Shown: one piece after another, positions 10,467 through 23,771 of the stretch | Numbering within the stretch: the first letter of the stretch is position 1 | Layout: each line of letters starts with the position of its first letter | Source of the DNA: a virus | IMG/VR virus record: IMGVR_UViG_3300030099_005981 | Coordinates: 2,985 to 26,755 of that record | Direction: 5' to 3' (one strand) | Length of the DNA stretch: 23,771 nt | The notes under the pieces: model-generated | What the model was told of the DNA's origin: nothing | The model's input: only the letters and a program-made list of their open reading frames with translations | The model's database searches: none | Made by a program: the position numbers and the translations under genes

Positions 10467-11171
10467 CTATTCTCCCGAGTCATCTATGACACCCTTATAG
10501 ATTACTTTGAACTTTTTTAAAGAGTTACGTATTTCTTTAGTCGAAAGATTTGTCATCTCTCTTAAATTTAAGAGCACTAAATTTTTATTAAACTTATTCC
10601 CCTCACCGTGAATAAATATTTCATCATAATTACTAAAAACTTCTATTAAAGCTGAACCTATCTTTACCTCATTTTCATTTAAATGAGTTGTAGACATAAA
10701 TTCCTCAATACGGTCTATTAAGTCTATAAAAAATTTAGAATGGTCGGTTGGTCCGTCATTATGGATATAGTATATTTGGTCTTCTCTGGTTTCCAAAGAA
10801 GTAGAGATATCTTCATATGAAATGTTTCTATTCTGGTGTTTTTGGTCTTTTATTATTTGACCCATCAAATAGTTTTTACAAATAGTACCAAAATAAGAAT
10901 AAGCTTTTTTACCTTTAGCTGGTTTGAATTTATCTGCTTTAGTTATTAAGAAAGATAAAACATCAGCGTGTATATCTCTAAATTCTTCACCTTTTCTATA
11001 TAATTTATACCTCCTAATGATACTGTCTATCATTTTATTTAAAGGTGAATATAGATGTTTATTATATATTTGATTTTTTTCAGTTAGAGTAGTAGCTGTT
11101 AAAAACATGCGAACCGCAGCTTCCTGTGGTTCACCAAAATACATAGTATTTTTAGATTTAGGCCTTGGCAC
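10467..11171 (-). CDS. 55: Late-transcription sigma factor, gp55-like
   Basis: Likely the phage sigma factor that directs host RNA polymerase to late promoters. Residues about 60-115 look like sigma-70 region 2: F-R-D-I-H-A-D-V-L-S-F-L-I, then K-F-K-P-A-K-G-K-K-A-Y-S-Y-F-G-T-I-C-K-N-Y-L, which is the core-binding/-10 pattern characteristic of T4-type gp55 proteins. The C-terminal part (S-T-K-E-I-R-N-S-L-K-K-F) may be a small DNA-binding or clamp-binding region. The length of 234 aa compares with 185 for T4 gp55. The start is GTG, overlapping the upstream glycosyltransferase stop (TAGTG); it is supported by the M-P-R-P-K-S-K N-terminus, typical of phage gp55 relatives. It lies between structural genes and the glycan block. 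Confidence 0.75.
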   Translation of the reverse strand: MPRPKSKNTMYFGEPQEAAVRMFLTATTLTEKNQIYNKHLYSPLNKMIDSIIRRYKLYRKGEEFRDIHADVLSFLITKADKFKPAKGKKAYSYFGTICKNYLMGQIIKDQKHQNRNISYEDISTSLETREDQIYYIHNDGPTDHSKFFIDLIDRIEEFMSTTHLNENEVKIGSALIEVFSNYDEIFIHGEGNKFNKNLVLLNLREMTNLSTKEIRNSLKKFKVIYKGVIDDSGE

Positions 11172-11968
11172 TACACTGTCTCTGGTTCGTATTTTATTCC
11201 TCTATCGGTAGTAAAAAAGTATTCTTTCTTTGCTGACTCAATCCAAAAATTAGCCTCATCAGAACTAATTTTTTTAGATTCATCATACCTATAGTCCCAA
11301 AATAAAGAACCACTTCTCATATTGGTGTGTTTATAACCTACTTTAGGTATCGTAAATATTTTTACATCATTATAAGTAGCTCTTAAAAGTAATTCATAAA
11401 CAAAGGTTAGTTTCATTGATGGTTTAAAACCACCTATTTCTTCAAATTTTTCTTTATCAATTACAAGACCACTGGTTTGGAAATTAGGATACCTTAGAAG
11501 ACATGCATTATCTAGATAACCCATTTTATCACTAAAATTCATTGCCCAAACAGCTTCATTAGTAAAGTTTATAAATTCTCCTTCGTCTGTCACGTCCACC
11601 ACTAAAGGTAAAAATATGTCTACATCATTATAGTGTGAAGAATATTTTTCTACATTATTAAACCAAATATTTGAATATTCATCATCATATTCTAAAATAG
11701 AAAACCATTTAGTTTTAACTTGGGATGCTCCATAATTAATCTGGGACATATAATCTGTTTCACCTTCATTTTCTACGACTTCCACATTTAATTCTTCAAA
11801 GTTAAAATTATCTAAATAATTTTTTAATTTATCGTCTTTAGACCTTACAATCAAAATGTTTGAAGGTACTGAAGTTTGACTTTTTAGACTTTTTACACAG
11901 TTGATAAAGTAGTTATTAAATTTTTCATCTATCTTATGTAGTGGGATAATTACTGTTATATTTTCCAT
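11171..11968 (-). CDS. GT2-like (GT-A fold) glycosyltransferase
   Basis: The N-terminus I-T-V-I-I-P-L-H-K, the conserved S-L-K-S-Q-T, and a metal/nucleotide-binding acidic motif I-L-E-Y-D-D-E-Y at residues 91-98 (in the usual DxD place) mark a GT-A fold transferase of the GT2 type. Later, G-L-V-I-D-K-E-K-F-E-E-I-G-G-F (about residues 167-181) matches the acceptor-side motif of the family. It probably transfers a sugar from a nucleotide-sugar donor in the cytoplasm; donor and acceptor cannot be read. It overlaps the gp55-like gene by one base and has a one-base gap to the GT4-like gene on the other side, so the three are co-transcribed. Confidence 0.8.
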   Translation of the reverse strand: MENITVIIPLHKIDEKFNNYFINCVKSLKSQTSVPSNILIVRSKDDKLKNYLDNFNFEELNVEVVENEGETDYMSQINYGASQVKTKWFSILEYDDEYSNIWFNNVEKYSSHYNDVDIFLPLVVDVTDEGEFINFTNEAVWAMNFSDKMGYLDNACLLRYPNFQTSGLVIDKEKFEEIGGFKPSMKLTFVYELLLRATYNDVKIFTIPKVGYKHTNMRSGSLFWDYRYDESKKISSDEANFWIESAKKEYFFTTDRGIKYEPETV

Positions 11969-11969
11969 T

Positions 11970-13061
11970 TTATTTTTCTTCTTTTAAAGTAAATTTATTT
12001 AAAGCATTTTCTAATTCTTTTATTTTTTCTTCTTCTACCTTACCAAAAAATTCTAGTAATTGAGCAGTAGTATTTTCTACAGTGTAAGGTTCTATAGTTT
12101 TATCCATTTCTTCCAGTAGTTGTTCTGGTAATGAATCTTCTAACCATGTTTTAATGTAAGCTTGGATAATATCTACAATTTGTGTAGACTCGTAAGTCCA
12201 AAAACCGTTTTCTTCTTTCAGCCAATCTGGTTTTAAGTTAGGAATTTTACCAATTACTGGAACACCAGTTTTCATACATTCTAGAGGGAAAGTACCAAAA
12301 CCTGATATGTCATCCACCCAAACACCAACACACATTTCATTTAAAGTGTTAGCGAAAAATTCTACTGACATTCCTCTCATGTCTCTAAACGTTATCCATT
12401 TAAATTGTGGGTACTTAGCGTAAAAAGTTTTTACAATTTTCATAGTATCTCTAGGGTCTCTAGTATGTATCCCAATTATTGGTTGACCTGGTAATTTTTG
12501 ATTTTTGAATACAGGAGAAATATTTGGTGTTATCACCGAAACATTCATTTGTGGGAAAACACTGTTAATGTACTCTTTTGATGTTTGTGAAGTTGTTATA
12601 GCGTAAGTGTAACCATAGTTTATCCATTGGACTCCAGGTTGTAACATTTCAAATATATAATCATAAGATTGACATAAAACAATTTTTGTACATGCCATAT
12701 CTTTAGTTTGTTCCATTACGTGACCAAACAATTCAGGTACTACAAGTATATCTTCTGGACCCACTTTTAGTTCACCCGTTTCTACACAAGCATGTGGAAG
12801 TTCAGCGAATTCTTCACCTAACCAATCCTCTATAGATAACCACTCTGGATTACCGTCTTTAATTTTATAATCTTTTTTCTCATGTAAGATTATTGCGTCA
12901 TATCCATTTTCTCTTAATGTCTTAACTAACCCATAGATATATGAAATTGAAGCTTTTGGATTACCTTTAGTATCTTGAGTAAGGAAATATAACTTACCTG
13001 TTTTATTTTTTACTAGGTTTAAAGCTTCTTCTATTTTTTTAAAATTTTTGTCGTCTGCCAT
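11970..13061 (-). CDS. GT4-like (GT-B fold) glycosyltransferase
   Basis: A 363-aa protein with a GT-B two-domain layout. The N-terminal half starts with a beta-strand (K-L-Y-F-L-T-Q-D) and an S-x-x-Y-x-x-x-L-V-K-T-L helix as in glycan synthases. The C-terminal half holds I-G-I-H-T-R-D (around residue 196) and the donor-binding signature W-V-D-D-I-S-G-F-G-T-F-P-L-E-C-M-K-T-G-V-P-V-I-G (about 248-271), the E-x7-E-like region of GT4 enzymes. The last 60 residues are helical and charged. It probably adds a sugar to a growing cytoplasmic glycan; specificity is not visible. It follows a 104-aa unknown gene by 6 bases. Confidence 0.78.
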   Translation of the reverse strand: MADDKNFKKIEEALNLVKNKTGKLYFLTQDTKGNPKASISYIYGLVKTLRENGYDAIILHEKKDYKIKDGNPEWLSIEDWLGEEFAELPHACVETGELKVGPEDILVVPELFGHVMEQTKDMACTKIVLCQSYDYIFEMLQPGVQWINYGYTYAITTSQTSKEYINSVFPQMNVSVITPNISPVFKNQKLPGQPIIGIHTRDPRDTMKIVKTFYAKYPQFKWITFRDMRGMSVEFFANTLNEMCVGVWVDDISGFGTFPLECMKTGVPVIGKIPNLKPDWLKEENGFWTYESTQIVDIIQAYIKTWLEDSLPEQLLEEMDKTIEPYTVENTTAQLLEFFGKVEEEKIKELENALNKFTLKEEK

Positions 13062-13067
13062 TTTAGT

Positions 13068-13382
13068 TTAATTAACTTCTTTTATTATTTTATATTCGAT
13101 TAATGTATTTAATGCTAATTTAAAGGGAAATGTAGAATTATCAAGACTTTTATAACCCATTTTATCATCAATTTGTTCGTCCCCTGTAAATATAACATCT
13201 AGTAAGGTTCTTAATGTTTCATATTTTGCTGCGTTTATAGCTAATCCAGAGGACTCCACCTCTTCTTGAGTGGTATCTAAGGTAATCTCCGACATTAGTC
13301 TTTCAACGTCTACAACCATTTTCACACCCATAATATTCACTTGGAAATCTTTAAGCGAGTTCGTTTCTTTCAATATACTCAT
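13068..13382 (-). CDS. Hypothetical protein
   Basis: A 104-aa acidic, probably all-helical protein with no recognised motif, signal peptide or membrane segment. It begins M-S-I-L-K-E-T-N-S-L-K-D and has a T-L-D-T-T-Q-E-E-V-E central segment. Its first 32 bases overlap the 3' end of the HAD-like gene upstream, a long overlap that suggests translational coupling. It is embedded in the same-strand run of genes between the PhoH-like ATPase and the glycosyltransferases. No function can be given. Confidence 0.6.
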   Translation of the reverse strand: MSILKETNSLKDFQVNIMGVKMVVDVERLMSEITLDTTQEEVESSGLAINAAKYETLRTLLDVIFTGDEQIDDKMGYKSLDNSTFPFKLALNTLIEYKIIKEVN

Positions 13383-13926
13383 TTTCTACTAATTCTTTAA
13401 ATGAAGTGACTTTAATTATTTCATTGTTTTTAACGTCACTTTCTTTTTTATTTACTGTAATATATGTACTTTCACCTACATTAATAATGTTTTCGTTGTT
13501 AGTTATGATAATGTCAGCTTCTTTGTTAACATTAATATAATCTTTTAAAGGAAAAAATTTAACGTTATCTATTAACAAACCCATTCTAGCTAAAAACATT
13601 AAAGTAGCTGGTTTGGACTTTTCAATCTCATTAGAAAAAATAGTAAGATTATGTTCGTCCCTATACTTTTTATAAAATTCATTTAACATAAAAGAAATAC
13701 CATCTTCTGTTTCTGAAGCATAACCGAATATTCTCATAGGTGCTTCCACATACATAAACTCTATCAGTTCATCACCATTCTCAACACCCAGGTATTTTTG
13801 TAAGTCTTGACCATCATAATCCTCAGTAAACTCTTTTTCTGGATTATCACTTTTATAGACTTGAATGGTTTTAGTGTTTATATCTCTTATTATATTATTT
13901 AATTCTATGTATATATTTTTTTTCAT
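13351..13926 (-). CDS. HAD-like protein with apparently degenerate active site
   Basis: The layout resembles a small HAD-superfamily phosphatase or nucleotidase, but catalytic positions look altered. The start K-K-N-I-Y-I-E8-L-N10-N-I-I-R-D occupies the place of HAD motif I (D-x-D-x-x-x-R-D). L-T-I-F-S98-N fits motif II. The segment A-D-I-I-I-T-N-N (137-144) fits the place of motif IV, where two Asp are normal. A K-x-x-T-L-x-F-L-A-R-M-G helix lies between. If the alignment is right, the nucleophile Asp is Glu and the second Asp is Asn, so the protein would be inactive as a phosphatase and may bind a ligand or partner. Assignment to HAD is by eye and uncertain. It sits downstream of PhoH with a 38-base gap. 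Confidence 0.45.
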   Translation of the reverse strand: MKKNIYIELNNIIRDINTKTIQVYKSDNPEKEFTEDYDGQDLQKYLGVENGDELIEFMYVEAPMRIFGYASETEDGISFMLNEFYKKYRDEHNLTIFSNEIEKSKPATLMFLARMGLLIDNVKFFPLKDYINVNKEADIIITNNENIINVGESTYITVNKKESDVKNNEIIKVTSFKELVENEYIERNELA

Positions 13927-13964: not shown

Positions 13965-14627
13965 TTAATAACCTGTTAATAATGTTAATACTTCATCTAT
14001 AGCTTCATGACGATGATTGTCTTCTAAAACAGATTTAAAAACAAATTCAGAATCTTTGATTTTTGGAATTTCATGAATTGCAGAATAATTTTTGTCTTTT
14101 AAATCTATTTGTTGGTTATCACCACAAAATATCATAGTAGAATTTTTTCCTAACCTACCTAAAGCCATGTTTAATTGAGACTTAGTTAGGTTTTGAAATT
14201 CGTCTACTATAACAACACAATTTTCAAATGTCCTTCCTCTAAAATGTGCTAAAGAAACAAGTTCAATACTCTCATCCTCTTCCATTTTTTCTAATATCGT
14301 GGGTTTATTATAAACCTTTCTCATATTACTTCTAATAGGTACCAGCCAAGGCTCCATTTTTTCTTTTTCAGAACCAGGTAAAAAACCATTATCTTCAGTA
14401 GAAACTGTGGGACGAGTTATTATAATTTTATTTACCATTCTTTTAAAAAACATATCTAATGCTGTTTGACAAGCTAATAACGTTTTTCCAGAACCAGCTT
14501 TACCCACAATAAAATTAAAAGGATGGGTTAACATTTCTGCTTTAGATAACTTTTGTTCTTGAGATAAAGTTATAGAAAATCTTACAGGTCCTTTAGGTGG
14601 AACTTTATCAATGTTTTGTTTTGCCAT
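13965..14627 (-). CDS. phoH: PhoH-like P-loop ATPase
   Basis: Cytoplasmic ATPase of the PhoH family. Walker A is G-K-A-G-S-G-K-T (42-49), Walker B is V-V-I-V-D-E-F-Q-N (138-146), and the family-specific T-R-P (71-73), F-R-G-R-T-F (129-134) and C-G-D-N-Q-Q-I-D (168-175) motifs are all present and intact. It is the short form of about 220 residues, without the PIN domain found in PhoH2. PhoH-like genes are very common in marine and other phages; the role is not established, with RNA-related helicase or nucleotide functions suggested. The gene lies 10 bases downstream of gmd, whose leader and its own are A/T-rich without a Shine-Dalgarno. Confidence 0.92.
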   Translation of the reverse strand: MAKQNIDKVPPKGPVRFSITLSQEQKLSKAEMLTHPFNFIVGKAGSGKTLLACQTALDMFFKRMVNKIIITRPTVSTEDNGFLPGSEKEKMEPWLVPIRSNMRKVYNKPTILEKMEEDESIELVSLAHFRGRTFENCVVIVDEFQNLTKSQLNMALGRLGKNSTMIFCGDNQQIDLKDKNYSAIHEIPKIKDSEFVFKSVLEDNHRHEAIDEVLTLLTGY

Positions 14628-14637: not shown

Positions 14638-15627
14638 TTAATAACTTATTTCTTGTTTTGCACTGTAAACTTTCATCCAGTGGTCCACCATTTCCTCCAT
14701 TAACATCTTAAAACTATATTTAGGTTTCCACCCAAGCTCAGTTCTAATTTTAGTAGAGTCTCCTTTTAAATATGGTAGTTCTTCAGGTCTCATATATTTT
14801 GGGTTTTGAACTACGTAATCTTCATAATTTAAATCTAAATGTTTAAAAACAACGTCACACATTTCTCTGACTGAATGAGTCTCCATTGTAGAAACAACCC
14901 AATCACCAGGTTCATCTTGTTGTAACATAAGATGCATTGCTCTAACATAATCATAAGAGTGACCCCAGTCTCTATAAGAGTCCATATTACCCAGTTCTAG
15001 TTTATCTTGTAATCCTAGTTTAATTCTAACTGCCGCTTTTACCACTTTGTTTGTTACAAAATTTGACCCTCTTCTAGGTGATTCGTGGTTAAATAGTATT
15101 CCATTAGTTGCGTGTAATTTATAAGCTCTTCTGTAATTTCTAACAATATTATAACCAAATACTTTAGAACACCCATAAGGTGATACTGGATTCATTACTG
15201 TAGTTTCTCTTTGAAACCCATCTTCGTCTACAGTTAAACCAAACATTTCCGAAGAACTAGCTTGATAGAACTTAGAGTTTGGACAACTCCTTCTATAGGC
15301 TTCTAAAATATTTAAAACACCTAAGGAATTAGTTTGTACTGTAAATTGTGGTATGTCAAAACTAATTCTAACATGTGATTGTGCAGCAATATTATATATT
15401 TCGTCAGGTTGTATCTTATCCAAAAGCCTCTCTAACCCTCCTTGGTCTAATAGGTCACCATAATAAGTTTTTATTTTACCTTCTAAATGATTTAATCTAG
15501 TATCTTGGTGTTCTGGAGTAGAATTTCTTCTGACAATCCCGTGTACATCATATCCAAGCTCTACTAAGTATTCGGCAAGATAACTTCCATCTTGTCCTCC
15601 TATACCCGTAATAAATGCTTTTTTCAT
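14638..15627 (-). CDS. gmd: GDP-mannose 4,6-dehydratase
   Basis: Converts GDP-D-mannose to GDP-4-keto-6-deoxy-D-mannose, the first step toward GDP-L-fucose and related deoxysugars. It is an extended SDR enzyme: NADP-binding G-I-G-G-Q-D-G (8-14), R-R-N-S-T-P-E-H, the S-S-S-E-M-F-G segment with catalytic Ser/Glu (124-130), Y151-x-x-x-K155, and the diagnostic N-H-E-S-P-R-R-G (180-187). The length of 329 aa is normal for short Gmd forms and all catalytic residues are present, so it should be active. The second enzyme of the pathway, Fcl, is encoded 1.4 kb upstream. The 78-base gap before this gene is among the longest on this strand and contains a possible late promoter. Confidence 0.95.
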   Translation of the reverse strand: MKKAFITGIGGQDGSYLAEYLVELGYDVHGIVRRNSTPEHQDTRLNHLEGKIKTYYGDLLDQGGLERLLDKIQPDEIYNIAAQSHVRISFDIPQFTVQTNSLGVLNILEAYRRSCPNSKFYQASSSEMFGLTVDEDGFQRETTVMNPVSPYGCSKVFGYNIVRNYRRAYKLHATNGILFNHESPRRGSNFVTNKVVKAAVRIKLGLQDKLELGNMDSYRDWGHSYDYVRAMHLMLQQDEPGDWVVSTMETHSVREMCDVVFKHLDLNYEDYVVQNPKYMRPEELPYLKGDSTKIRTELGWKPKYSFKMLMEEMVDHWMKVYSAKQEISY

Positions 15628-15705: not shown

Positions 15706-16305
15706 TTATTTATATATTTTTTTAAACACTTCCATTTTTGATAAGTCGGGCCAATCATTTATAACCCATTGTCGGGGTTTAGATTCAATCGCTTTATCTA
15801 ATTTATCTAAACCTTTTTGAGCTGTTTCTGGAGTCATGTAATAGTGGTAACCTAGAGTATCTATGTCTTGGTCTCTCCAAGGAATGTTGGGGATTCTACC
15901 ATCATAAGACATTTTTTTAAGGTGGTCAGTGGCTTCTTTATTGTCTGTTAGAATCATTCCTCCACGACCTAATGATAAATGTTTTTGAAATTGAAAACTT
16001 AAACACATAAATGTCCCTGGAATATAACTGTTTTTTTTCCATAATACAGCAGCATCAATTATATCGTTGGTGAGATAATAATAATCTTTCCATTCTATAT
16101 CTTCCCATATTAAATCTATGCCTAATTTTTCCGCTAAAAAAGGGACTGATATGTAAGTCCTATTTGGTACACGTATAAGTTTATCACCATTTCTTCTTAA
16201 ACACAACTCAATTCCGTGGGTACAACTATCTACAGCTATCCCATAAGGTGCACCAAAAAATTTAGATACCCCTTCCTCAAACTCTTTTACTTTATTAAAA
16301 CTCAT
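15706..16305 (-). CDS. DegT/DnrJ/EryC1-type aminotransferase-like protein, short form
   Basis: A PLP-dependent sugar aminotransferase relative. It keeps the family order F-F-G-A-P-Y-G-I-A-V-D-S-C-T-H-G-I-E (start of the PLP domain), V-P-N-R-T-Y-I-S-V (the usual V-P-x-x-T-F-x-x-T), I-D-A-A (D84), and S-F-Q-F-Q-K108-H-L-S-L-G-R-G-G-M-I-L-T, where K108 is in place of the PLP-binding lysine. The total of 199 aa compares with 370-400 for ordinary enzymes: most of the C-terminal domain is missing, leaving only D-x-x-G-Y-H-Y-Y-M-T-P and two helices. The gene has intact start and stop and tight spacing to neighbours, so it seems a stable compact form rather than a fresh truncation. A role in making an amino sugar is possible, but activity is uncertain. 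Confidence 0.7.
   Translation of the reverse strand: MSFNKVKEFEEGVSKFFGAPYGIAVDSCTHGIELCLRRNGDKLIRVPNRTYISVPFLAEKLGIDLIWEDIEWKDYYYLTNDIIDAAVLWKKNSYIPGTFMCLSFQFQKHLSLGRGGMILTDNKEATDHLKKMSYDGRIPNIPWRDQDIDTLGYHYYMTPETAQKGLDKLDKAIESKPRQWVINDWPDLSKMEVFKKIYK
15707..15714 (-). promoter_or_regulatory. Possible late promoter (TATAAATA) ahead of gmd
   Basis: On the - strand bases 15714-15707 read TATAAATA, the exact T4 late promoter core recognised through gp55. It overlaps the stop of the upstream aminotransferase-like gene and lies about 80 bases before the gmd start, in one of the longest gaps on this strand. In such AT-rich DNA the octamer also occurs by chance (for example inside coding sequence near 6030 and, on the other strand, near 7691), so support is weak. 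Confidence 0.28.
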
Positions 16306-16306
16306 A

Positions 16307-16963
16307 TTATTTAGTTATTGTTTTTTCATTGAAAGACTTATAAAAATTTATATCTTCATTGTATAAATTTTCTATTTTTTCCTTGTATTCGTTATCAGTA
16401 CGTATAAATTGTATTAGTGACTTTTTCAATAATTGATGTTCACTAATATTTAGAGTTTTTAATTTATGACCTAAGAAATTTTCAAGATTAGTTATGTGTT
16501 CTAGTTTAAATATGTTAATATTTTTATAAAAACTTTTAGTCTTTAAATCTCTTATATAATCTACTTGTTGGACTATATGAGGTTCAAAATAACCATATTC
16601 AAAAATATAATCAGTAAATTTTTTAAATTTAACAATCTCATCTTTAACCATAAAAAGATTATTTAACTTACCTTTTAATCCATCAGGTAATGGAATCATA
16701 TGATACCTACCTTTAGGATAATCACTTGTTGATATCATTGACTCTAGGTAACCCGAAACATATCTAATCAAAGGGTCTCTAACTATAGAAATAATTTTTT
16801 TATTATTTATCATAGATTCTGGTAAATTTGTAATGTGTCCTAGTTTTGTTAATCCAAATTGGTTTTTTAACGTAGTAGACATACATTTAGGAATACCCAT
16901 TAAACCTAAATCATACCTACGGTTGTGCCAAACCATACCATTGTGTATTTCGTAAATTTTCAT
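16307..16963 (-). CDS. Sulfotransferase-like protein (first of two)
   Basis: Resembles PAPS-dependent carbohydrate sulfotransferases. The 5'-phosphosulfate loop is M-G-I-P-K-C-M-S-T-T-L-K (22-33) and the 3'-phosphate site I-V-R62-D-P-L-I-R-Y-V-S70-G-Y-L-E follows at the expected distance. Later parts are helical and Lys-rich, ending near N-E-D-I-N-F-Y-K-S-F. There is no signal peptide or membrane anchor, so it would act in the host cytoplasm on a glycan or lipid-linked intermediate using host PAPS. One base separates it from the aminotransferase-like gene. Base composition is visibly more AT-rich than the capsid genes. The substrate cannot be read. Confidence 0.75.
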   Translation of the reverse strand: MKIYEIHNGMVWHNRRYDLGLMGIPKCMSTTLKNQFGLTKLGHITNLPESMINNKKIISIVRDPLIRYVSGYLESMISTSDYPKGRYHMIPLPDGLKGKLNNLFMVKDEIVKFKKFTDYIFEYGYFEPHIVQQVDYIRDLKTKSFYKNINIFKLEHITNLENFLGHKLKTLNISEHQLLKKSLIQFIRTDNEYKEKIENLYNEDINFYKSFNEKTITK

Positions 16964-16985
16964 TTATAATATCCAAATTAATATT

Positions 16986-17906
16986 TTATTTTCTAGCTTT
17001 TTCATAATTTTCAACGAACCATTGTACAGTCTCTTTAATTCCTTCTTTAAATGGTTTAAATTTATAATTAGGAAATAATTTTTTTAACTTTGTGTTATCA
17101 CTGGGTTTACGATATTGCCCGTCTGGTTTATCACTCATCCAAACAACTTGACCTTTAAATTCAAAGGATTCTACTATAGTTTCTACAACTTCTTTTATTG
17201 AGATTTCTTCTGACGTAGAAAGTATGATAGGTTCATCGTCATCATACCCACTCTCTAATATTAATTCAGTAAGTTTTGCGATATCTTCACTATGAATAAA
17301 TTCTCTTAAAGGTGTTCCACTTCCCCACACATAAAAAGGTTTGTTATTTAACTTAGATAAATAACATTTATGAATTAATGATGGTATTACATGCCCATTC
17401 TCTATATTAAAATTATCATTAGGTCCGTAAATATTAGTTGGTATCACACATGTGTACTGGAGCCCGTATTGTTCTTTATATGCTCTAACTTGGATGTCCG
17501 CCATTCTTTTTGCGTAAGCGTATGCATTATTAGAAGTATGTGGAGGACCTAGATGAATTTTAGATTCAGTTAATGGATACTCTACATTATCTGGAAAAAC
17601 ACAGGTAGATAAAAATACAATTAATTTTTTAACATTAAATTTTCTTGCGGATTCTATGACATTTGTATTTATCATAATATTATCATAAAAAAATTCCCCT
17701 TTAAATCTCATATTACTACCTAATCCACCTACTTTAGCTGCACAATGAATTATAGCATCCCATTTTTCTTTAAATACATTTTCAGTATCTTCAGTTTTTC
17801 TTAAATCACAGTCTTTTGAAGATAGATGTGTGTAATTTTTACCCACGAATTGTGTTCCGACCAATCCACGGCCTCCCGTTATTAGTATTTTATCCATAGT
17901 TTTCAT
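16986..17906 (-). CDS. fcl: GDP-L-fucose synthase
   Basis: Epimerase/reductase that turns the Gmd product into GDP-L-fucose using NADPH. Motifs: I-T-G-G-R-G-L-V-G (9-17), H-C-A-A-K-V-G-G-L-G-S-N (54-65, characteristic of Fcl), L-S-T-C-V-F-P (99-105) with the catalytic Ser/Cys, Y129-A-Y-A-K133, and V-I-P-T-N-I-Y-G-P-N-D-N-F-N (154-167). Length 306 aa is normal and the active-site set is complete. The first ATG overlaps the GT10 stop as TAATG; Met4 aligns better with family starts and is a reasonable alternative. The coupling with a GT10 gene immediately upstream suggests the product is used directly by that enzyme. Confidence 0.94.
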   Translation of the reverse strand: MKTMDKILITGGRGLVGTQFVGKNYTHLSSKDCDLRKTEDTENVFKEKWDAIIHCAAKVGGLGSNMRFKGEFFYDNIMINTNVIESARKFNVKKLIVFLSTCVFPDNVEYPLTESKIHLGPPHTSNNAYAYAKRMADIQVRAYKEQYGLQYTCVIPTNIYGPNDNFNIENGHVIPSLIHKCYLSKLNNKPFYVWGSGTPLREFIHSEDIAKLTELILESGYDDDEPIILSTSEEISIKEVVETIVESFEFKGQVVWMSDKPDGQYRKPSDNTKLKKLFPNYKFKPFKEGIKETVQWFVENYEKARK

Positions 17907-18760
17907 TATCTTAAACAGTTTTTAAAAAATTTAAGGAATATATCCCCATCATATAAACTGTGATTTTTTATTTTTTCATAAGACATCATTTCTAGTAGTT
18001 TATCTTTATTATTTAATAACATAGAAATTTGGTCATATATTTCTTCTTTGGTTTGTGTGTGATAATTTAAAAAAGTATTTCCATTAAAATCTTTAGTTAT
18101 TTCGGAATCTCCAAAATAAATGGGTATGGAATTTACTTTAAACGGGTCAATAATTTTTTCTGAAGTATACCCAGGAGAACAGGAATTTTCAATAGCAATA
18201 ACAAAATTATAATTTTTAATAAAACCTAATTTATCTTCTCCTACTGTTACATTTTTATTACGTAAACAGTTGCCGACACAATCTACTCTAAATTTTTTCA
18301 TTAAATCTTTCACCATATCATCTCGGAAAGAAACACAACTACGTTGAAGATAGACAATATCTTTAGGTTTAATGTATTTTTCTCTAGTGTTGTCAATTTC
18401 ATCTTTAACTTTAAATCCATATTTTCTAAGATACTGAGGCATTCGGAAATTTGTTGGGTAATCGACGTTAAATGGGGTGATACTATAATGTGAAAATTCT
18501 ATAACTTTATCCCACCCTTTTACCATATCTAATGCTGGATAAGGACGAAATGGAAAATTTTCAGCAGCATAAAATATTTTAATTACATTTTTTTTAGTAA
18601 AATATTTATGTGAAGTACCAAAAACACTAAATATTACTACGTCTGGATTATTACTATATTCCACATTAAAATGTCTGTTTAAAAATTCCCCAAATAGAGG
18701 GTCAGTAGACGGGTTAAATCCCGGCCAAAAATCAACAAATTTAATTTTAAGTTTATCCAT
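17906..18760 (-). CDS. GT10 alpha-(1,3)-fucosyltransferase-like enzyme
   Basis: Transfers L-fucose from GDP-fucose to a glycan acceptor. The C-terminal donor-binding block is a textbook GT10 signature: F-V-I-A-I-E-N-S-C-S-P-G-Y-T-S-E-K-I-I-D at 186-205, then S-I-P-I-Y-F-G (211-217) and D-F-N-G-N-T-F-L-N (224-232). The N-terminal half has F-Y-A-A-E-N (63-68) and F-R-M-P-Q-Y (105-110), the equivalents of the acceptor-side motifs. The 284-aa size is compact compared with bacterial FucTs, and there are no C-terminal heptad repeats or membrane anchor. It overlaps fcl and a methyltransferase gene by one base each. With gmd and fcl nearby the donor pathway is complete, so alpha-fucosylation is the most confident activity in this block. 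Confidence 0.9.
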   Translation of the reverse strand: MDKLKIKFVDFWPGFNPSTDPLFGEFLNRHFNVEYSNNPDVVIFSVFGTSHKYFTKKNVIKIFYAAENFPFRPYPALDMVKGWDKVIEFSHYSITPFNVDYPTNFRMPQYLRKYGFKVKDEIDNTREKYIKPKDIVYLQRSCVSFRDDMVKDLMKKFRVDCVGNCLRNKNVTVGEDKLGFIKNYNFVIAIENSCSPGYTSEKIIDPFKVNSIPIYFGDSEITKDFNGNTFLNYHTQTKEEIYDQISMLLNNKDKLLEMMSYEKIKNHSLYDGDIFLKFFKNCLR

Positions 18761-19302
18761 TATTTATGTGTCTCTAAATTTAAACTTATTAAAGTGCCAT
18801 TTTCTTTATCCATGTGAGGTTTGTAAGATTGTGAGTGGTCATCATTTTTAATATGAACTGAATAATTTCTCCAGTTATATCTTTTTGGTTCTTTAAAACC
18901 TATTGATTTTAGTTTTGAATGTAAACTCTTAAAATCGTAAGTTGTTTTATGGTATATGTTTTTACCACCCATTTCCATTTTCCCATATAAAGGACCTAAA
19001 AATTCTTTTAGTGGTGTATTTTTATTTAAATATAACCTAGCCATCGCTTCAAAATCTGGAACCGCTAACCGTAAAATTCCTCCAGGTTTTAAAACTCTGT
19101 ACCATTCTTCTAAAACTTCACTCACTTCTTCCCTATCAAAGTACTCCAATACATGAGAAGCGTAAATTAAATCTACAGTATTATCTTCATAATTTAAATG
19201 TGTTATAGAATGACTATCTAAATGGTCGTAATTACCACCATCTATATGTGTCCACTCAGAACCAAAATTCCTCCAACCACAACCCATATTTATTTTTACC
19301 AT
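18760..19302 (-). CDS. SAM-dependent methyltransferase (class I, type 11-like)
   Basis: Short Rossmann methyltransferase. Motif I is I-N-M-G-C-G-W (4-10), with the next acidic residue in H-I-D-G-G. The pattern D-L-I-Y-A-S-H-V-L-E-Y-F (44-55) and V-L-K-P-G-G-I-L-R-L-A-V-P-D (69-82) is typical of the family that methylates small molecules or sugars. The position inside the glycan block, overlapping the GT10 gene by one base, suggests it modifies a sugar or capping residue. The target is unknown; a 4-base gap precedes the next gene. Confidence 0.8.
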   Translation of the reverse strand: MVKINMGCGWRNFGSEWTHIDGGNYDHLDSHSITHLNYEDNTVDLIYASHVLEYFDREEVSEVLEEWYRVLKPGGILRLAVPDFEAMARLYLNKNTPLKEFLGPLYGKMEMGGKNIYHKTTYDFKSLHSKLKSIGFKEPKRYNWRNYSVHIKNDDHSQSYKPHMDKENGTLISLNLETHK

Positions 19303-19306
19303 GATA

Positions 19307-19945
19307 TTATATTTTACTATATATTTTTATCGCTCCTTCATATTCACCTTTTAACGTTAATTCACATCTGTCTATTAAAGAATTTTCAGTGCCTCTACCA
19401 AAATAAAAAGAGTCCATTAAAACACATTTTATATCCATTTTATTGAATGTGGGTGAACTTAACCATATACCTGAAGATGTAATTACATCACCTTTAAAAT
19501 TACCTAATAAATCTATATTATTAGTTACAGGCATAATTTCAACACTTAATCTGTTTTTAACTATTTCATGAAATGTAACATTAGAAATCTGAGAATAATT
19601 ATCGTAATTAAAACACGTTATCCCGAGCTCTTTTAAAAAAATAGATAACAATCCTAATCCAGCACCGTTATCTATAAAATTTAATTTAGAAAATTTATCT
19701 AAATTTTTTAAAATATAATCTAATATTGTTATATTAGGTAAAAATAATAATCTTTCAAAGTAGTCAGAAATTTCTTTATTTATATGTTTATCGTTTCTAT
19801 TTGTATATGTGCCTAGAGTACCGAAGTAATGTTGGTTATCTATAGATTTAGAGGTGGAAAAATAGTCATTATAACAATTTTTTAATTCTTTTATAAACTC
19901 TTTAGAAAAACTTTTTTTAATTAAATTTAAATCTATTTCTTTCAT
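19307..19945 (-). CDS. Probable methyltransferase-like protein
   Basis: A 212-aa protein with a motif I-like segment K-L-N-F-I-D-N-G-A-G-L-G-L-L-S-I-F-L (about 87-104) and an acidic strand end (C-F-N-Y-D-N-Y), consistent with SAM binding. Strands equivalent to motif IV (G-D-V-I-T-S-S-G-I-W) follow. The N-terminal 80 residues are helical and Lys-rich. It overlaps the cupin gene by 4 bases (ATGA). The acceptor is unknown and the call rests on a single good motif. Confidence 0.6.
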   Translation of the reverse strand: MKEIDLNLIKKSFSKEFIKELKNCYNDYFSTSKSIDNQHYFGTLGTYTNRNDKHINKEISDYFERLLFLPNITILDYILKNLDKFSKLNFIDNGAGLGLLSIFLKELGITCFNYDNYSQISNVTFHEIVKNRLSVEIMPVTNNIDLLGNFKGDVITSSGIWLSSPTFNKMDIKCVLMDSFYFGRGTENSLIDRCELTLKGEYEGAIKIYSKI

Positions 19946-20355
19946 TTTATGAACTCTTTATCTAATTTTTGACCTTCATAGGGTCCTGTTTTATATTCAT
20001 ATACTATCGTATCTTCTTCTAATATTTCATATGTGTGACCACCGTAGAGAGTAAAACTCGCATCTCCTGGGCCTAGAATAGGTTCAGCTATTAAACTATC
20101 GTCTAGGTCGTAAAATTTACATTTAACACTACCTTTAATTACAATCCAAGATTCTTGAGCTATTTGATTTGGATAGTGTCTATCTTTTGTGATGTGTTTA
20201 TGGGGTAGAAACGTTTTACCTTTATCCATTTTCATGGTGGCACATTGTATGAAGTTTTCCTGAGGTACTACATCACATCTGCCCTCTATTTCTTCTAAAC
20301 GATTTATTATATGTAATAACTTATTAGGTTCTACTTTTGAATATACCTTTTCCAT
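19942..20355 (-). CDS. Cupin-fold protein with intact metal site
   Basis: A 137-aa single-domain cupin. The first motif is F-L-P-H52-K-H54 ... Q-E68-S-W-I-V-I-K-G, and the second G-P-G-D-A-S-F-T-L-Y-G-G-H107-T-Y, giving the complete three-His/one-Glu metal set. Related small cupins occur in bacterial polysaccharide loci (WbuC-like) and as sugar isomerases, so a sugar-modifying role fits its place among transferases, but the reaction cannot be read. It overlaps the methyltransferase-like gene by four bases and is three bases from the next gene. Confidence 0.75.
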   Translation of the reverse strand: MEKVYSKVEPNKLLHIINRLEEIEGRCDVVPQENFIQCATMKMDKGKTFLPHKHITKDRHYPNQIAQESWIVIKGSVKCKFYDLDDSLIAEPILGPGDASFTLYGGHTYEILEEDTIVYEYKTGPYEGQKLDKEFIK

Positions 20356-20358
20356 CGA

Positions 20359-21099
20359 TTAAACTAGTTTTTCTATATGTTTAGGAAGTATACCTTTCTC
20401 TTCCATTTCTTTTATAACTTTTGGGTCTATGTCGTGTAATCTATATTTAAAAAGTCCACTACTGTTATTAAAGGTCGACACCCCTTCATTTCTAGGTGAT
20501 ATTACCTTTTCTGTATGTTTAGTACCTAATATATCGTACCCATCATTCCTACTAATTATGTTACCATAATTTTCTACATCCCACGGGGTCATATTGGGTT
20601 TTTTTAAAATTCTTAGAAGATAATCCTTATTCCATATAGACAATGGAAAAGACGCTCTCCATTTAGCATTTTGTCCTCTAACATAAATTTTTAACCCATC
20701 AAGGTCTTTATATAAAGAGTGGGGTTGTATTACACCTTCAGACATTCTAGTAAAAACATCTGTTAAGTCTACCCTACCTACTTTATCGTGTAATATATTT
20801 TCTATTTTGTTTATGGATTCTATATCAGTCTTAGAAGTTAAAAAATTATCTTCCATAGTGTATATAAAAAATTTTTCTTCTAATGAATTAAAATATTTTT
20901 TTAAATCATCGGACCAAAATTTTGTGCCCCTATCTTCACCCATACTGTGAAAACTAAAGTTAGATGGTAGTTCAAATGAAGGATGTTTATAACCGATTAC
21001 TTCTACTTCTTGTTTAGAGGACCAAAATTTATTAAAAAGAAAACAGTAAACTTTTAGAACGTCTTCATATTTGTCTGATGTGGATACAATTAGTTTCAT
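20359..21099 (-). CDS. Probable glycosyltransferase-like protein (GT-A type features)
   Basis: A 246-aa cytoplasmic protein starting with a beta strand (K-L-I-V-S-T-S-D-K-Y) and helix as in GT-A transferases. It has K-F-F-I-Y-T-M-E-D-N-F at about residues 76-86, where E-D-N could serve as the metal-binding acidic motif. Later it has R-A-S-F-P-L-S-I-W-N-K-D-Y-L-L and M-T-P-W-D-V-E-N-Y-G, a pattern also seen in phage- and capsule-encoded transferases. No named family is certain. The neighbours are a cupin (three bases away) and a sulfotransferase gene (21-base gap). Confidence 0.55.
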   Translation of the reverse strand: MKLIVSTSDKYEDVLKVYCFLFNKFWSSKQEVEVIGYKHPSFELPSNFSFHSMGEDRGTKFWSDDLKKYFNSLEEKFFIYTMEDNFLTSKTDIESINKIENILHDKVGRVDLTDVFTRMSEGVIQPHSLYKDLDGLKIYVRGQNAKWRASFPLSIWNKDYLLRILKKPNMTPWDVENYGNIISRNDGYDILGTKHTEKVISPRNEGVSTFNNSSGLFKYRLHDIDPKVIKEMEEKGILPKHIEKLV

Positions 21100-21120
21100 T
21101 ATTTATTTTATATTAAGTAA

Positions 21121-21720
21121 TTATAAGTTATTATTATCAAACTCGTAATTAAAGAAATTTATGTCTTTTTGGTATATGTCTTTAATAATTTCTATGGATT
21201 CTTTATCGTAGTAATCCTTATAGTTTCCCCTATTAGATGTGTTAGTTTTAGGAATATTTACATTTTCATTTATACCTAATTTCCTAAATAGGTTATTTAA
21301 TTCAGTATCTAAATTTTCCATTTTTAATACAGAATCGACCACAACTTTATCTTCGTCATTTACGATGTATGTATGTTGGTTTTTCCATCCTGGATGAGTA
21401 AACTTGTTTGGTTTTTCTTGAAGAAGTCTAACACATTCTTTAAACGTTAAAGAGTGACATAAATCATAATCAGGGTGTTTAGTGTGGTCATCTTTAGAAT
21501 GCCAATAACTTTTTTCCATTTTAGCAAATTCATAACAGGAAACAACTCTATCCCATGGATTTCTAACAATACTAAATTTGTGATAAGGTCCATTAAATTT
21601 TGGGTGTGTACGCCAATCATAGTGACCGTGTGGGTAAAGACTTAACTTGTTTATAAGAGAAGTACCCGCATTTTTGGGTATGTGTATAAATAATATTTTA
21701 TATTTTTCCGAAACTGCCAT
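21121..21720 (-). CDS. Sulfotransferase family 2-like protein (second of two)
   Basis: PAPS-dependent sulfotransferase of the carbohydrate/HNK-1 type. The 5'-phosphosulfate loop is I-H-I-P-K-N-A-G-T-S-L (12-22); the 3'-phosphate site is I-V-R53-N-P-W-D-R-V-V-S61-C-Y-E-F. The C-terminus has D-Y-Y-D-K-E-S-I-E-I-I-K-D-I-Y-Q-K-D-I-N-F-F, a recognisable end of Sulfotransfer_2 proteins. It differs clearly from the sulfotransferase at 16307-16963 in its loop (K-N-A-G-T versus K-C-M-S-T), so the two are paralogues at best distantly and probably act on different positions. No membrane anchor is present. The start overlaps the GT7 stop by one base (TAATG). Confidence 0.88.
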   Translation of the reverse strand: MAVSEKYKILFIHIPKNAGTSLINKLSLYPHGHYDWRTHPKFNGPYHKFSIVRNPWDRVVSCYEFAKMEKSYWHSKDDHTKHPDYDLCHSLTFKECVRLLQEKPNKFTHPGWKNQHTYIVNDEDKVVVDSVLKMENLDTELNNLFRKLGINENVNIPKTNTSNRGNYKDYYDKESIEIIKDIYQKDINFFNYEFDNNNL

Positions 21721-22379
21721 TATAAAGTTACTTTTACAATTGTATGGTCTACTTTATTTTCCACACCTACAATTTCATAAATTAAGGTGTTGAGGCCTTC
21801 TTCTTTATGGTAATTATTGCCAGGGGTATCTCTAAAATCTCTCATTTTATTTCTATTATTTTCATAATTATCGTGGTGTGGGCCAGCATATCTATGAGGT
21901 AAAGATTTATATTTATTCATTCTTTTATGTATTTCAAAACCTTCTTTTACACACCTTAATCTTAAGTCGTCATCTTCACCGCCCCAGCCCCAGTACTCAT
22001 TACTAAAACCATTAACCTTTTCAAAATCTTCTTTATTAAACATAGTCACACCACCAAATAATTCTTCATAGTGCACCCTCCAACCTAAATGTTCCAAAAG
22101 TCTAGCCAAGTGTGTTGGGGTTTCCACATAATCATAATTTGCGTTTTCTATTGGTAATAAGTCTATGTCATGAAAACAAAAATAGTCACATTCTTTTTTA
22201 AGAAACTCATAACCCACATTAAGGAGTTTAGCACGATTAAATGGTTTTTCATCGGATTGTTCAACTATGACTATTTTATGATTAATGTTTTTTAAAAACT
22301 GTGTCATGTGAGGTATGAACTCAGCTAAATGAGATTCTCTATCTCTATATGGTACTACAATGCCTAATACTTTTTCCAT
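21720..22379 (-). CDS. GT7 beta-1,4-galactosyltransferase-like enzyme
   Basis: All main hallmarks of the animal-type GT7 family (B4GALT) are present in order: V-V-P-Y-R-D-R-E (8-15), F-N-R-A-K-L-L-N-V-G (47-56), F-H-D-I-D-L-L-P (69-76, DxD metal/donor site), F-G-G-V (108-111), and N-G-F-S-N-E-Y-W-G-W-G-G-E-D-D-D-L-R (123-140), the acceptor/donor loop. It ends with an H-x-H-like P-H-H-D near 167-170. At 219 aa it is a bare catalytic domain with no membrane anchor. It probably transfers galactose or N-acetylgalactosamine in beta-1,4 linkage, most likely to a GlcNAc-type acceptor by family precedent. It is coupled by one-base overlaps to genes on both sides. Confidence 0.88.
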   Translation of the reverse strand: MEKVLGIVVPYRDRESHLAEFIPHMTQFLKNINHKIVIVEQSDEKPFNRAKLLNVGYEFLKKECDYFCFHDIDLLPIENANYDYVETPTHLARLLEHLGWRVHYEELFGGVTMFNKEDFEKVNGFSNEYWGWGGEDDDLRLRCVKEGFEIHKRMNKYKSLPHRYAGPHHDNYENNRNKMRDFRDTPGNNYHKEEGLNTLIYEIVGVENKVDHTIVKVTL

Positions 22380-23515
22380 TATTTTATTATTTTATATGCC
22401 GGACGCAATTGACTGTGTCCTAGATAATTTATTTCTTTGAAGTTAAACGGTTTAAATACGTTATCGTAAAATTCAGGTGTGTCTATTTCAGCAGCTCCAT
22501 TACCTTCGAAGTACATACCCTCTTTAGTGTTTTTTACTATATAAGTAAAACTTTTATTTACATCTATGATTTCTTTAGTTCTATAAATTGCTTGATAAAT
22601 GGTCCAGTCCCATTCCTTAACGGTATCTTCGACATCTTTTTCAAAAGTATCTAAATTAAAGTCTATCGTATTGTTCACAATATCTAAACCTAATATTTCT
22701 GAAATTTTAGCTCCAGTATTAATTACACATTCTTGATAATCAAAATTGTATATTTTCTTAGCTCCGTTAAAGTAGGCCTCAATTGCTGCTTGCCCTAGAT
22801 TACCCCCAAAATCCACAACTACTTTATCTTTTAAATTACTAAAATCATAAATTTCTGTATATCTAGGTTCTTGAACTCTTTGGCCTTTAAGTCCGACTTC
22901 TTTTATTTCTTGGTACCTAGGGAACCATGTACACGTAGACCCAAATGAATTAATAACTTCTTTATCCATAGTTCTTAAGTATTTCTTTAAATCCATACGT
23001 CTTACTATAACATAACAATCTAGTTCTGTTTTACCAGCTTCCAAAGCTGACATTACGCGATGCATACCATCTACTTGATATAAAAATTCTGGGACATCTG
23101 TAAACATATAATCCTTTAAAACTCCAGGGTGAGTAAGGATTATAGGGGTAAAAACATCCCCATTGATAAAGTTATCTTTATATTTAGAGTATTCGGAAAA
23201 TAACGGGTCATTCCTCCAAGAGTCTTTATCTTTAAAAGATATTTTAGCTTTAGTTTTAATCACCGCTAATTTATTTAATTTAATGTCCGGTTTAACTTTT
23301 CTTTTGAATTGCCTTTCTGAAATTATTCTAAATAAATCAAAAATAGATATGTCTTCTTTATTAAAGTAGTCTTCCAGGGTCCCAACAGCTGGTAACACGT
23401 TTCCTTTAATAGTTAAATCACATTCTAAATTAACATATTTTTCTAGGTTATTAAATTGTTGTTGTTTTAAAACTGTTTCTGGTTGTGAAAATAAGGTTTG
23501 ATTAATTTTGTACAT
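22379..23515 (-). CDS. ParB-like domain fused to SAM methyltransferase-like domain
   Basis: A 378-aa two-part protein. Residues about 120-175 look like a ParB/sulfiredoxin-type fold, centred on Q-V-D149-G-M-H-R153-V-M-S-A-L-E-A-G-K, a match to the D-G-x-H-R-x-x-A signature. Residues about 228-350 look like a class I methyltransferase: K-V-V-V-D-F-G-G-N-L-G-Q (231-242) and Y-N-F-D-Y (256-260) for SAM. Residues 1-115 are helical and unassigned. The DGxHR domain can act as a nuclease or a nucleotide-binding/kinase-like module, so the overall role is unclear; within a glycan block it might phosphorylate and methylate a sugar or cap. The start overlaps the partial gene upstream by 14 bases. Confidence 0.65.
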   Translation of the reverse strand: MYKINQTLFSQPETVLKQQQFNNLEKYVNLECDLTIKGNVLPAVGTLEDYFNKEDISIFDLFRIISERQFKRKVKPDIKLNKLAVIKTKAKISFKDKDSWRNDPLFSEYSKYKDNFINGDVFTPIILTHPGVLKDYMFTDVPEFLYQVDGMHRVMSALEAGKTELDCYVIVRRMDLKKYLRTMDKEVINSFGSTCTWFPRYQEIKEVGLKGQRVQEPRYTEIYDFSNLKDKVVVDFGGNLGQAAIEAYFNGAKKIYNFDYQECVINTGAKISEILGLDIVNNTIDFNLDTFEKDVEDTVKEWDWTIYQAIYRTKEIIDVNKSFTYIVKNTKEGMYFEGNGAAEIDTPEFYDNVFKPFNFKEINYLGHSQLRPAYKIIK

Positions 23516-23771
23516 TTAAATTAAATTTTTTTTGTTCTTTTACAATATCGTAAAATTTATCTGGAGCTCCCCCCATTAAAGCTTGTTTCCCATAAGACCA
23601 ATCATTATAATAATTAACTATTTTGTCTATATTTTTAAAATTAGGTGAAGCTGAAGAATTTGTCAACTTTACTTTAATATCTTTTCTAACATAGCTCATG
23701 TGATGCATTTCAACCTCTTCCCTAGTAAAAATTTTACATTTACCAGGTTCCATTCTTCTAGTTGGGTCAAC
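23502..23771 (-). CDS. C-terminal part of a glycan-block protein, possibly a glycosyltransferase (5' end outside window)
   Basis: The frame is open to the right edge (V-D-P-T-R-R before the first internal Met at 23753), so this is the 3' part of a longer gene. The visible tail contains V-E-M-H-H-M-S-Y-V-R-K-D-I-K-V-K-L-T-N-S, which resembles C-terminal segments of some GT-A transferases where His-His and an Arg/Lys-rich strand bind donor or metal. The rest is a short helical end. It overlaps the ParB/methyltransferase fusion by 14 bases. Family assignment is tentative. Confidence 0.5.
   Translation of the reverse strand, partial: VDPTRRMEPGKCKIFTREEVEMHHMSYVRKDIKVKLTNSSASPNFKNIDKIVNYYNDWSYGKQALMGGAPDKFYDIVKEQKKFNLNVQN

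Follow-up and report, generated by a model that had tools for sequence, protein, structure and literature searches.

The segment at positions 16307 to 22379 of the window (the whole 23,771-nt stretch of viral DNA analyzed here) is a variable and exchangeable cassette within a phage glycan island that has conserved flanks. In close-packed genes on the minus strand it encodes a full GT7 glycosyltransferase, a GT10 fucosyltransferase and two PF03567 sulfotransferases, exactly where the initial annotation had placed them, and all Pfam scores of this set exceed their curated cut-offs. We put at about even odds (probability roughly 0.5) the reading that the cassette caps a glycan by means of its GT7, GT10 and sulfotransferases, with GT25 filling the GT7 role in relatives, and that the target is a phage structural protein. 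The phage is T4-like (Gp23, PF07068, 248 bits). There is a weak hint of a Bacteroidota host: phage DnaK is 64 to 66% identical to that of three Bacteroidota genomes (in one, over part of the length) versus 57 to 63% in ten others over long matches, no long DnaK match came from a fourth Bacteroidota genome, and the better Gp23 matches include Flavobacterium phages.

A glycan island with conserved flanks and a variable middle

Synteny is conserved on both sides of the cassette (Table 1). The left flank comprises GT407, an exonuclease, a dUTPase, RmlB, GT519 and GT260, and the right flank PhoH, u191, u104, GT363, GT2_265 and a sigma-factor-like gene; the names exonuclease and dUTPase were assigned from sequence. 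GT519, GT260 and GT363 are glycosyltransferases without an assigned type. GT260, truncated in the window, is complete in L160:8155-8937.

Table 1. Genes of the glycan island in the window
Feature	Position	Strand	Details
Right-flank remainder: u191, u104, GT363, GT2_265, sigma-factor-like	10467..13926	-	
PhoH	13965..14627	-	First gene of conserved right flank, after GMD
GDP-mannose 4,6-dehydratase (GMD)	14638..15627	-	PF16363
DegT/DnrJ-type aminotransferase-like, short	15706..16305	-	199 aa; L006 counterpart 195 aa, 81% identical
Second sulfotransferase	16307..16963	-	PF03567, 29.5 bits; 218 aa
GDP-L-fucose synthase (GMER)	16986..17906	-	PDB match 4e5y
GT10, alpha-3-fucosyltransferase-like	17906..18760	-	PF00852 and PF18025; 284 aa
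Methyltransferase	18760..19302	-	PF08241
212-aa protein without family match (Pfam, PHROG)	19307..19945	-	
WbuC-like cupin	19942..20355	-	34.6 bits, under family cut-off of 42
246-aa protein of no named family	20359..21099	-	L006 counterpart 83% identical
Sulfotransferase	21121..21720	-	PF03567; 199 aa; 1-nt overlap with GT7 gene
GT7, beta-4-Gal/GalNAc-transferase-like	21720..22379	-	219 aa; DID 71-73, WGWGGEDDD 130-138, gate residue Leu107
378-aa protein of no named family	22379..23515	-	Directly upstream of GT7; L006 counterpart 89% identical
GT260, 3' part	23502..23771	-	Record end cuts gene; last gene, conserved left flank

Between these flanks, the GT7 slot is occupied by GT25 in close relatives, with GT10 kept. 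The gene order is GT260-MT378-GT7-ST-GT10 in G005 and GT260-GT25-ST-GT10 in G053, the sulfotransferases of the two are related (41% identity), and a search of G053 with our own GT7 profile found no GT7. GT10 is present in 11 of 24 island records, accompanied by GT25 in eight, by GT7 in two, by neither in one and by both in none, the in-island GT7 search covering the retrieved loci. In-island GT25 occurs in 2 of the 13 records without GT10. The comparison takes in related records, with G053 and G100 as near copies, and in three or more of the 13 (among them G098, G099 and G112) the island runs off the contig end, so that absence there means little. Among 17 distant island loci, GT25 follows GT260 in just 7, and GT11 and sulfotransferases are found in 9 and 4 of the 24 island records, respectively. 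The function of GT25 is a putative one, taken from its family; its best PDB match, to a procollagen galactosyltransferase, is weak (E 5e-4). The GT25-GT10 combination is an apparent stand-in for the GT7-GT10 pair.

GMD and GMER, for GDP-fucose synthesis, are part of the same minus-strand run as the GT7, GT10 and sulfotransferase genes. The proposal that the block forms one transcription unit is plausible: spacing from GT260 to PhoH ranges from -14 to +22 nt with a single exception of 78 nt, but the frequency of promoter-like and terminator-like sites does not exceed that of shuffled sequence.

Enzymes of the cassette

The profile search confirmed the predicted GT7 motif set, with both PF02709 (91.1 bits; cut-off, 23) and PF13733 (73.3 bits; cut-off, 27) present. 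Matches of the same protein to xylose isomerase were dismissed as noise (~20 bits versus cut-offs of 459 and 533). The AlphaFold model (pLDDT 94.9) has the beta4GalT fold, with human beta4GalT1 as a structural match at a Foldseek TMq of 0.90 (4l41_C and 1o0r_A). Metal-binding DxD and catalytic WGWGxEDD motifs are both in place, and Asp71 is invariant in all 179 alignment rows covering that column. The enzyme is like animal beta-1,4-galactosyltransferases and invertebrate beta-4-GalNAc-transferases in both domains, whole fold and motifs; unlike animal GT7 proteins, it is only 219 aa long and without a membrane anchor, and its identity to PDB beta4GalT chains is 28 to 31%.

The initial label of beta-1,4-galactosyltransferase holds for family and fold but is doubtful for plain galactose transfer. 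In alignment with human beta4GalT1, Leu107 falls on the Tyr of 'QYFGG' (Tyr289, the Gal/GalNAc gate). In 162 viral GT7 ORFs, a count that takes in near copies, the gate residue is Tyr in 149, Ile in 5, Trp in 5, Leu in 2 and Asn in 1, the two Leu-gate enzymes being those of the window's population (L001) and of L006. According to the excerpts available, Ile or Leu at the gate, as also found in invertebrate GalNAc-transferases, is key to GalNAc transfer (PMC7943597), and Y289L confers GalNAc-transferase activity on beta4GalT1 (PMC10709319). Leu107 thus disfavors a plain beta-1,4-galactosyltransferase and suggests a GalNAc-tolerant enzyme, for which GalNAc transfer would be likelier than pure Gal transfer. 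The GlcNAc-binding residues of beta4GalT1 presumably correspond to positions near 170 to 180, where loop placement differs between alignments; since they are not securely placed, the acceptor may be something other than GlcNAc.

The GT10 protein scores 49.6 bits to PF00852 (cut-off, 23.9) and 47.5 bits to PF18025 (FucT_N; cut-off, 27.2) and matches alpha-1,3-fucosyltransferase 2nzw in the PDB (E 2.7e-13). GMD matches PF16363 at 389 bits, and the best PDB match of GMER is GDP-L-fucose synthase 4e5y (E 1.5e-93). Judged by gene family, the window has the beta-4-hexosyltransferase, alpha-3-fucosyltransferase and fucose donor pathway of a Lewis-type route; a GlcNAc-transferase to make the acceptor may lie among the glycosyltransferases without an assigned type (GT519, GT260 and GT363). 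The sulfotransferase adjoining GT7 scores 71 bits to PF03567 (cut-off, 22) and 60.2 bits to PHROG 3347 ('Galactose-3-O-sulfotransferase'), although its structure model (ST199) is poor (pLDDT 74), with weak sulfotransferase matches (E 8.6e-3 or worse); the second sulfotransferase has the weakest score of the enzyme set. The earlier suggestion of a sulfated Lewis-like glycan is supported in part: the enzyme set and the GDP-fucose pathway speak for it, and a plain galactosyltransferase is disfavored.

Occurrence in other phages

GT7 had been thought uncommon in phages; instead, of 425 stretches matched in viral contigs from uncultured phages, 402 encode a relative. Two GT7 queries against 50,697 deposited phage records, from which records very near the window were possibly left out, gave no match, and the openly licensed PMC literature contained, among the matches listed, nothing about a phage GT7 or about GT7, GT10 and sulfotransferase as a set in a phage. 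In the GT7 tree that had been proposed as a check, the window's protein groups with those of L006 and L007 (97/97) and away from the only two animal sequences included; both of these have long branches, and the fly one lies in an unresolved part shared with most phages. Recent transfer of GT7 from animals is not supported by this grouping.

Co-occurrence in related phages, also proposed as a check, was borne out in part. The trio of GT7, GT10 and PF03567 is certain in only 2 of 50 GT7-bearing records, namely G001, to whose population the window belongs, and G005 (L006), while in GT7-bearing G011 the PF03567 match is broken and below the cut-off. Elsewhere the pairs GT7-GT10 or GT25-GT10 are found, and in L010, L012, L019 and L022, whose flanks are unlike the window's, the GT7 gene shares 4 nt with the GT10 gene. 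Among records of at least 30 kb, PF03567 occurs in 12 of 38 with GT7 versus 1 of 17 controls (p 0.045); GT10 is not commoner (8 of 38 versus 2 of 17 PhoH controls; p 0.71). An apparent whole-contig enrichment of GT10 with GT7 (17/50 versus 2/45) was rejected: the contigs are of unequal size, and nothing of the enrichment is left at 30 kb and above. It is close GT7-GT10 pairing, not contig-wide enrichment, that carries the argument. PF13733 was detected in 0 of 45 controls, a zero given no weight because the positive control gave no signal either.

Proposed product, target and alternatives

For the sugar, linkage, acceptor, order of steps, target and purpose, we infer the following scheme. GT7 would most likely add GalNAc (or Gal) in beta-1,4 linkage, capping a glycan; GT10 would add alpha-1,3-fucose from GDP-fucose supplied by GMD and GMER, and two PAPS-dependent enzymes would add sulfate, yielding a fucosylated and sulfated LacdiNAc- or LacNAc-like cap. 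GT25 would play the GT7 part in relatives. The flanks stay constant from one related phage to the next and the middle changes, much as in a serotype locus. As the likeliest target we see a structural protein of the phage that would be glycosylated in the cytoplasm. Hydropathy predicts membrane segments in none of the 14 block proteins (GT260 part to PhoH), which favors cytoplasmic glycosylation of a phage protein, and indicates no flippase, polymerase or ligase of Wzx/Wzy-type export among them. In other island loci, a segment is predicted for 5 of the 286 ORFs that lie on the plus strand beyond position 10001; the flank exonuclease has one in G005, G052 and G053. Mycobacteriophage virions carry glycans on capsid and tail proteins (PMC12619734); the portion of that source available mentions no Lewis-type set, and a protein target in the window is a prediction.

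Surface polysaccharide loci typically contain genes of the WbuC-like cupin, FkbM-like and DegT-like kinds. Their presence in the islands makes it a real possibility that the cassette instead remodels the host envelope (O-antigen, capsule or lipid-linked precursor) and so alters adsorption or superinfection, with membrane steps falling to host transporters. However, because membrane proteins are absent from the block and few in other islands, there is no obvious candidate for a flippase, polymerase, ligase or membrane initiating transferase, and the island is surrounded by phage structural genes and the sigma-like gene. Envelope remodeling is the published interpretation of cyanophage sugar genes in the excerpted text of PMC9602691, whose cyanophage S-SCSM1 is likewise T4-like with GMD, GDP-fucose synthase and fucosyltransferases; these, as excerpted, are of O-FucT, alpha-1,2-FucT and NodZ types, unlike the window's GT10, and the words sulfotransferase and galactosyltransferase are absent from the paper's main text.

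That the cassette merely gathers unrelated auxiliary genes, with GT7, GT10 and sulfotransferases each acting on different substrates, is improbable: the restriction of the assured trio to two populations and a variable content that includes methyltransferases and genes of no named family would fit, but the GT7-GT10 overlaps in other phages, the GT7/GT25 exchange with GT10 kept and the GDP-fucose genes adjoining GT10 argue otherwise. Base modification of the phage DNA, comparable to T4 glucosylation, is very improbable, since the GDP-fucose pathway, GT10, sulfotransferases and GT25/GT7 exchange resemble oligosaccharide capping, even though the flank holds a dUTPase and an exonuclease, DNA-hypermodifying viral glycosyltransferases are known (from a cited title) and a role in nucleotide or protein modification has been suspected for phage sulfotransferases and glycosyltransferases (PMC10829341, in excerpt). 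The same excerpt describes underground-estuary viral contigs in which sulfotransferases, glycosyltransferases, nucleotide-sugar dehydratases and phoH also co-occur, interpreted as auxiliary nucleotide or protein modification, with no mention there of GT7, GT10 or an island structure. T4 gp42 and beta-gt queries found nothing convincing in G053 (E 1 and E 10), and at E 10 the T4 positive controls also failed.

The division of labor proposed for phage glycan capping resembles the Helicobacter pylori Lewis pathway, where, in the excerpt of PMC12342981, the beta-1,4-galactosyltransferase HP0826, FutA/B and FutC share the work; relatives of the window add GT11. The phage set differs in using GT7, adding sulfotransferases, lacking evident export genes and being phage encoded. 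Given Lewis-type genes in a phage and sugar genes that differ between relatives, bacterial viruses may build Lewis-like sugars of their own. Animal glycan chemistry and Helicobacter mimicry would then also be carried out by bacterial viruses, phages would alter their coat by swapping sugar cassettes between conserved flanks, the reason for wearing such sugars would become testable, and glycan synthesis would gain GT7, GT10 and sulfotransferase enzymes that are compact and soluble. More speculative, and on the unlikely side, is a general form of this reading: phages of several lineages would hold swappable animal-like kits for glycan caps serving as a serotype-like virion coat, each with a GT7-or-GT25 beta-4-hexosyltransferase slot and an alpha-3-fucosyltransferase, optionally with GT11 (alpha-2-fucose), sulfate and sialic acid (GT29, NeuB), and sulfated fucosylated LacdiNAc/Lewis-type glycans would have evolved in bacterial viruses with animal-homologous enzymes. 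The 484-kb phage LR756508 carries GT25, GT10, PF03567, GMD-like, GMER-like, NeuB and GT29 genes together.

The GT7 enzyme and its gene block

The window is the terminal part of a 26.8-kb virus record (G000), and Gp23 identifies the source virus as a T4-like phage. A 62-kb contig (L001/G001) matches the window at 100% protein identity in the genes of the block, starting with g89p (the 3' portion of GT260 in the window) and ending with the flank gene GT363; because of this identity we assign the contig to the same population and read from it the flank beyond the window. The block runs from GT260 through a 378-amino-acid (aa) unknown, GT7, a sulfotransferase, a 246-aa unknown, a cupin, a 212-aa unknown, a methyltransferase, GT10, GDP-fucose synthase, a second sulfotransferase and a short DegT to GDP-mannose dehydratase, followed by PhoH. 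Adjacent genes overlap or lie at most 22 nt apart, with the single exception of a 78-nt gap. The DegT-type aminotransferase has 199 aa (195 aa and 81% identical in L006, the locus of record G005; full length with 382 aa in G052) and is perhaps a reduced enzyme with a different role. G001 also encodes a full-length DnaK (PF00012, 870 bits). As to the host, the sequence offers a weak hint.

Coordinates of the glycan block and of genes observed beside it or in related loci
Feature	Location	Strand	Content
Glycan block	window 14638-23771	(-)	GT260 to GMD, PhoH next
Short DegT	window 15706-16305		DegT-type aminotransferase
GT29-like gene	L007:10364-11056		directly after GT7
LR756508 stretch	L370:10061-28100		sugar genes within ~18 kb
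GT7 set	L002:8244-14427		
GT7 set	L003:8271-11392		
GT7 gene scanned for further domains	L002:9950-11392		Laminin_G_3 after GT7 domains
DnaK region of G001	L162:4688-6553 and 6752-8791		DnaK adjoining ClpC-like AAA protein gene

The family assignment held up in profile and fold comparisons: both Pfam GT7 domains far exceed the cut-off, and an AlphaFold model built from 28 sequences (pLDDT 94.9) matches beta4GalT1 with a TMq of 0.90. By phmmer, residues 5-209 of the protein match Drosophila beta4GalT7 (E 6.5e-38) and residues 5-213 match human beta4GalT1 (E 4e-36). Plain galactose transfer, the other half of the initial beta-1,4-galactosyltransferase call, is less likely. Residue 107, which precedes the FGG motif and corresponds to the sugar-selecting Tyr289 of beta4GalT1, is Leu. 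Excerpts of published work describe Ile or Leu at this gate as key to GalNAc transfer (PMC7943597) and Y289L as conferring GalNAcT activity on beta4GalT1 (PMC10709319), so we predict that the window enzyme transfers GalNAc and tolerates Gal. In an alignment of our own GT7 profile matches, near copies included, the gate of 162 viral open reading frames (ORFs) is Tyr in 149, Ile in 5 (L008-L012), Trp in 5, Leu in 2 (L001, L006) and Asn in 1 (L007); among 17 ORFs on bacterial contigs, it is Tyr in 8, Phe in 4, Asn in 2, and Cys, Val or Thr in one apiece. Since the phage aliphatic and Asn gates fall in two separate clades of the GT7 tree (L001/L006/L007, support 97/97; L008/L010/L012, 99/99), phages probably acquired the altered gate on more than one occasion.

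GT7 had been thought uncommon in phages. An alignment search instead found 402 relatives among 425 matched stretches of viral contigs (the best 80 were retained, representing 77 loci), although two GT7 queries had no match at E 1e-3 in 50,697 deposited phage records. Genome contigs yielded at least 110 relatives among the 596 matched stretches listed, with E <1e-30 in 15 of the 80 retained; some of these contigs may themselves be phage.

GT10 and sulfotransferases near GT7

For 50 of the 78 viral GT7 loci, several of them near copies, we examined the records. GT10 matched in 17 (over cut-off in 12) and the sulfotransferase family PF03567 in 12 (over cut-off in 11). The proposed GT7-GT10-sulfotransferase neighborhood was found again in L006/G005, besides G001; in G011 the PF03567 match is weak and interrupted by stops, and the other 47 records lack the combination. 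As controls we used 45 of 80 PhoH-relative loci on contigs of at least 10 kb, leaving out G001 and G005: GT10 occurred in 2, PF03567 in 1 and the GT7 N domain in none, the last in a search run without a positive control. The two sets differ in contig size. On contigs of 10 to 30 kb, GT10 occurred in 9/12 GT7 records versus 0/28 controls and PF03567 in 0/12 versus 0/28; at 30 kb or more, the figures were 8/38 versus 2/17 for GT10 (P = 0.71) and 12/38 versus 1/17 for PF03567 (P = 0.045). Gene position is stronger evidence than these counts: the GT7 and GT10 genes overlap by 4 nt in L010, L012, L019 and L022 (GT10 scoring just below cut-off in L010 and L012), and L006 has the order GT7, sulfotransferase, GT10.

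An island with a variable middle

L006/G005, G053 and G052 match G001 on both flanks at 57 to 95% identity, and their middles differ. The common left flank runs from u220 to GT407-exo-dUTPase-RmlB-GT519-GT260 and the right from GMD-PhoH-u191-u104-GT363-GT2_265 to sigma, GMD being GDP-mannose 4,6-dehydratase. Typed by Pfam, with GMD and GDP-L-fucose synthase (GMER) typed by blastp, the middle of G053 (191 kb) holds GT25, a sulfotransferase, GT10, two further sulfotransferases (PF03567, PF00685), GMD and GMER, and that of G052 holds GT25, GT11, GT10, GMER, DegT and GMD. In 17 more distant island loci, whose GT519 is 46 to 70% identical across the aligned part, most lack RmlB and GMD at these places; GT25 (verified for four) immediately follows GT260 in 7, with GT11 after it in all 7 and GT10 also in 5.

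Our island census comprised 24 records: 22 of 80 GT519-relative loci, with five near copies and the weaker GT519 relatives omitted, and 2 of 30 from a second search. GT10 was present in 11, GT25 in 11 (inside the island in 10; ~100 kb off in G111), GT11 in 9, PF03567 in 4 and GT7, sought in the fetched loci, in 2; GT11 and PF03567 shared none of the 24, too few to test. The 11 GT10-bearing records had GT25 in 8, GT7 in 2 and neither in 1 (G113, which encodes a GT7 C domain alone, 33.8 bits), versus an in-island GT25 in 2 of the 13 GT10-less records (Fisher P = 0.0006, unchanged without the near copy G100). This association is only indicative, because the records are not independent by descent and the contig ends before the island does in at least three cases.

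HP0826, the beta-1,4-galactosyltransferase of Helicobacter pylori, is a GT25 member. That GT7 takes the place of GT25 while GT10 is retained fits one step performed by two unrelated enzymes. An excerpt on Helicobacter pylori Lewis x and y describes a beta-1,4-galactosyltransferase with alpha-1,3/4- and alpha-1,2-fucosyltransferases (PMC12342981).

Possible target of the proposed glycan, and related kits

The glycan reading as a whole is drawn from sequence. Our first choice of target would be a virion protein glycosylated in the cytoplasm, favored because export genes are not evident and structural genes lie on both sides. Membrane segments were predicted in 0 of the 14 window block proteins, in 5 of 286 plus-strand ORFs beyond position 10001 of other island loci, and in the exonuclease that G005, G052 and G053 encode in the flank. 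The host envelope comes second. DNA is a distant third; T4 positive controls gave no convincing match in the DNA-modification search.

LR756508, a 484-kb uncultured phage, carries CTP_transf_3, two GT25, GT10, NeuB, two GT29 genes and two PF03567 sulfotransferases, possibly a sialyl/sulfo-Lewis kit; blastp adds a third sulfotransferase and the GMER- and GMD-like genes, and inspection by eye a third GT29. In L007, which the GT7 tree places as sister to the window, GT7 is followed by GT29, CTP_transf_3 and PF03567. Going by these two gene sets, fucosylated, sulfated caps may recur in phages, and perhaps sialylated ones too. The GT29 sialyltransferase-like gene of L007 matches PF00777 over a short stretch (40.8 bits), and the locus also has DHQ-synthase-like and class III aminotransferase genes. 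L002, L003 and many of L016-L079 have two or three GT7 genes (~430 to 570 aa) as a set; those of L002 and L003 adjoin several genes resembling radical-SAM enzymes (CxxxCxxC motifs), and the one GT7 scanned among them carries a Laminin_G_3 domain.
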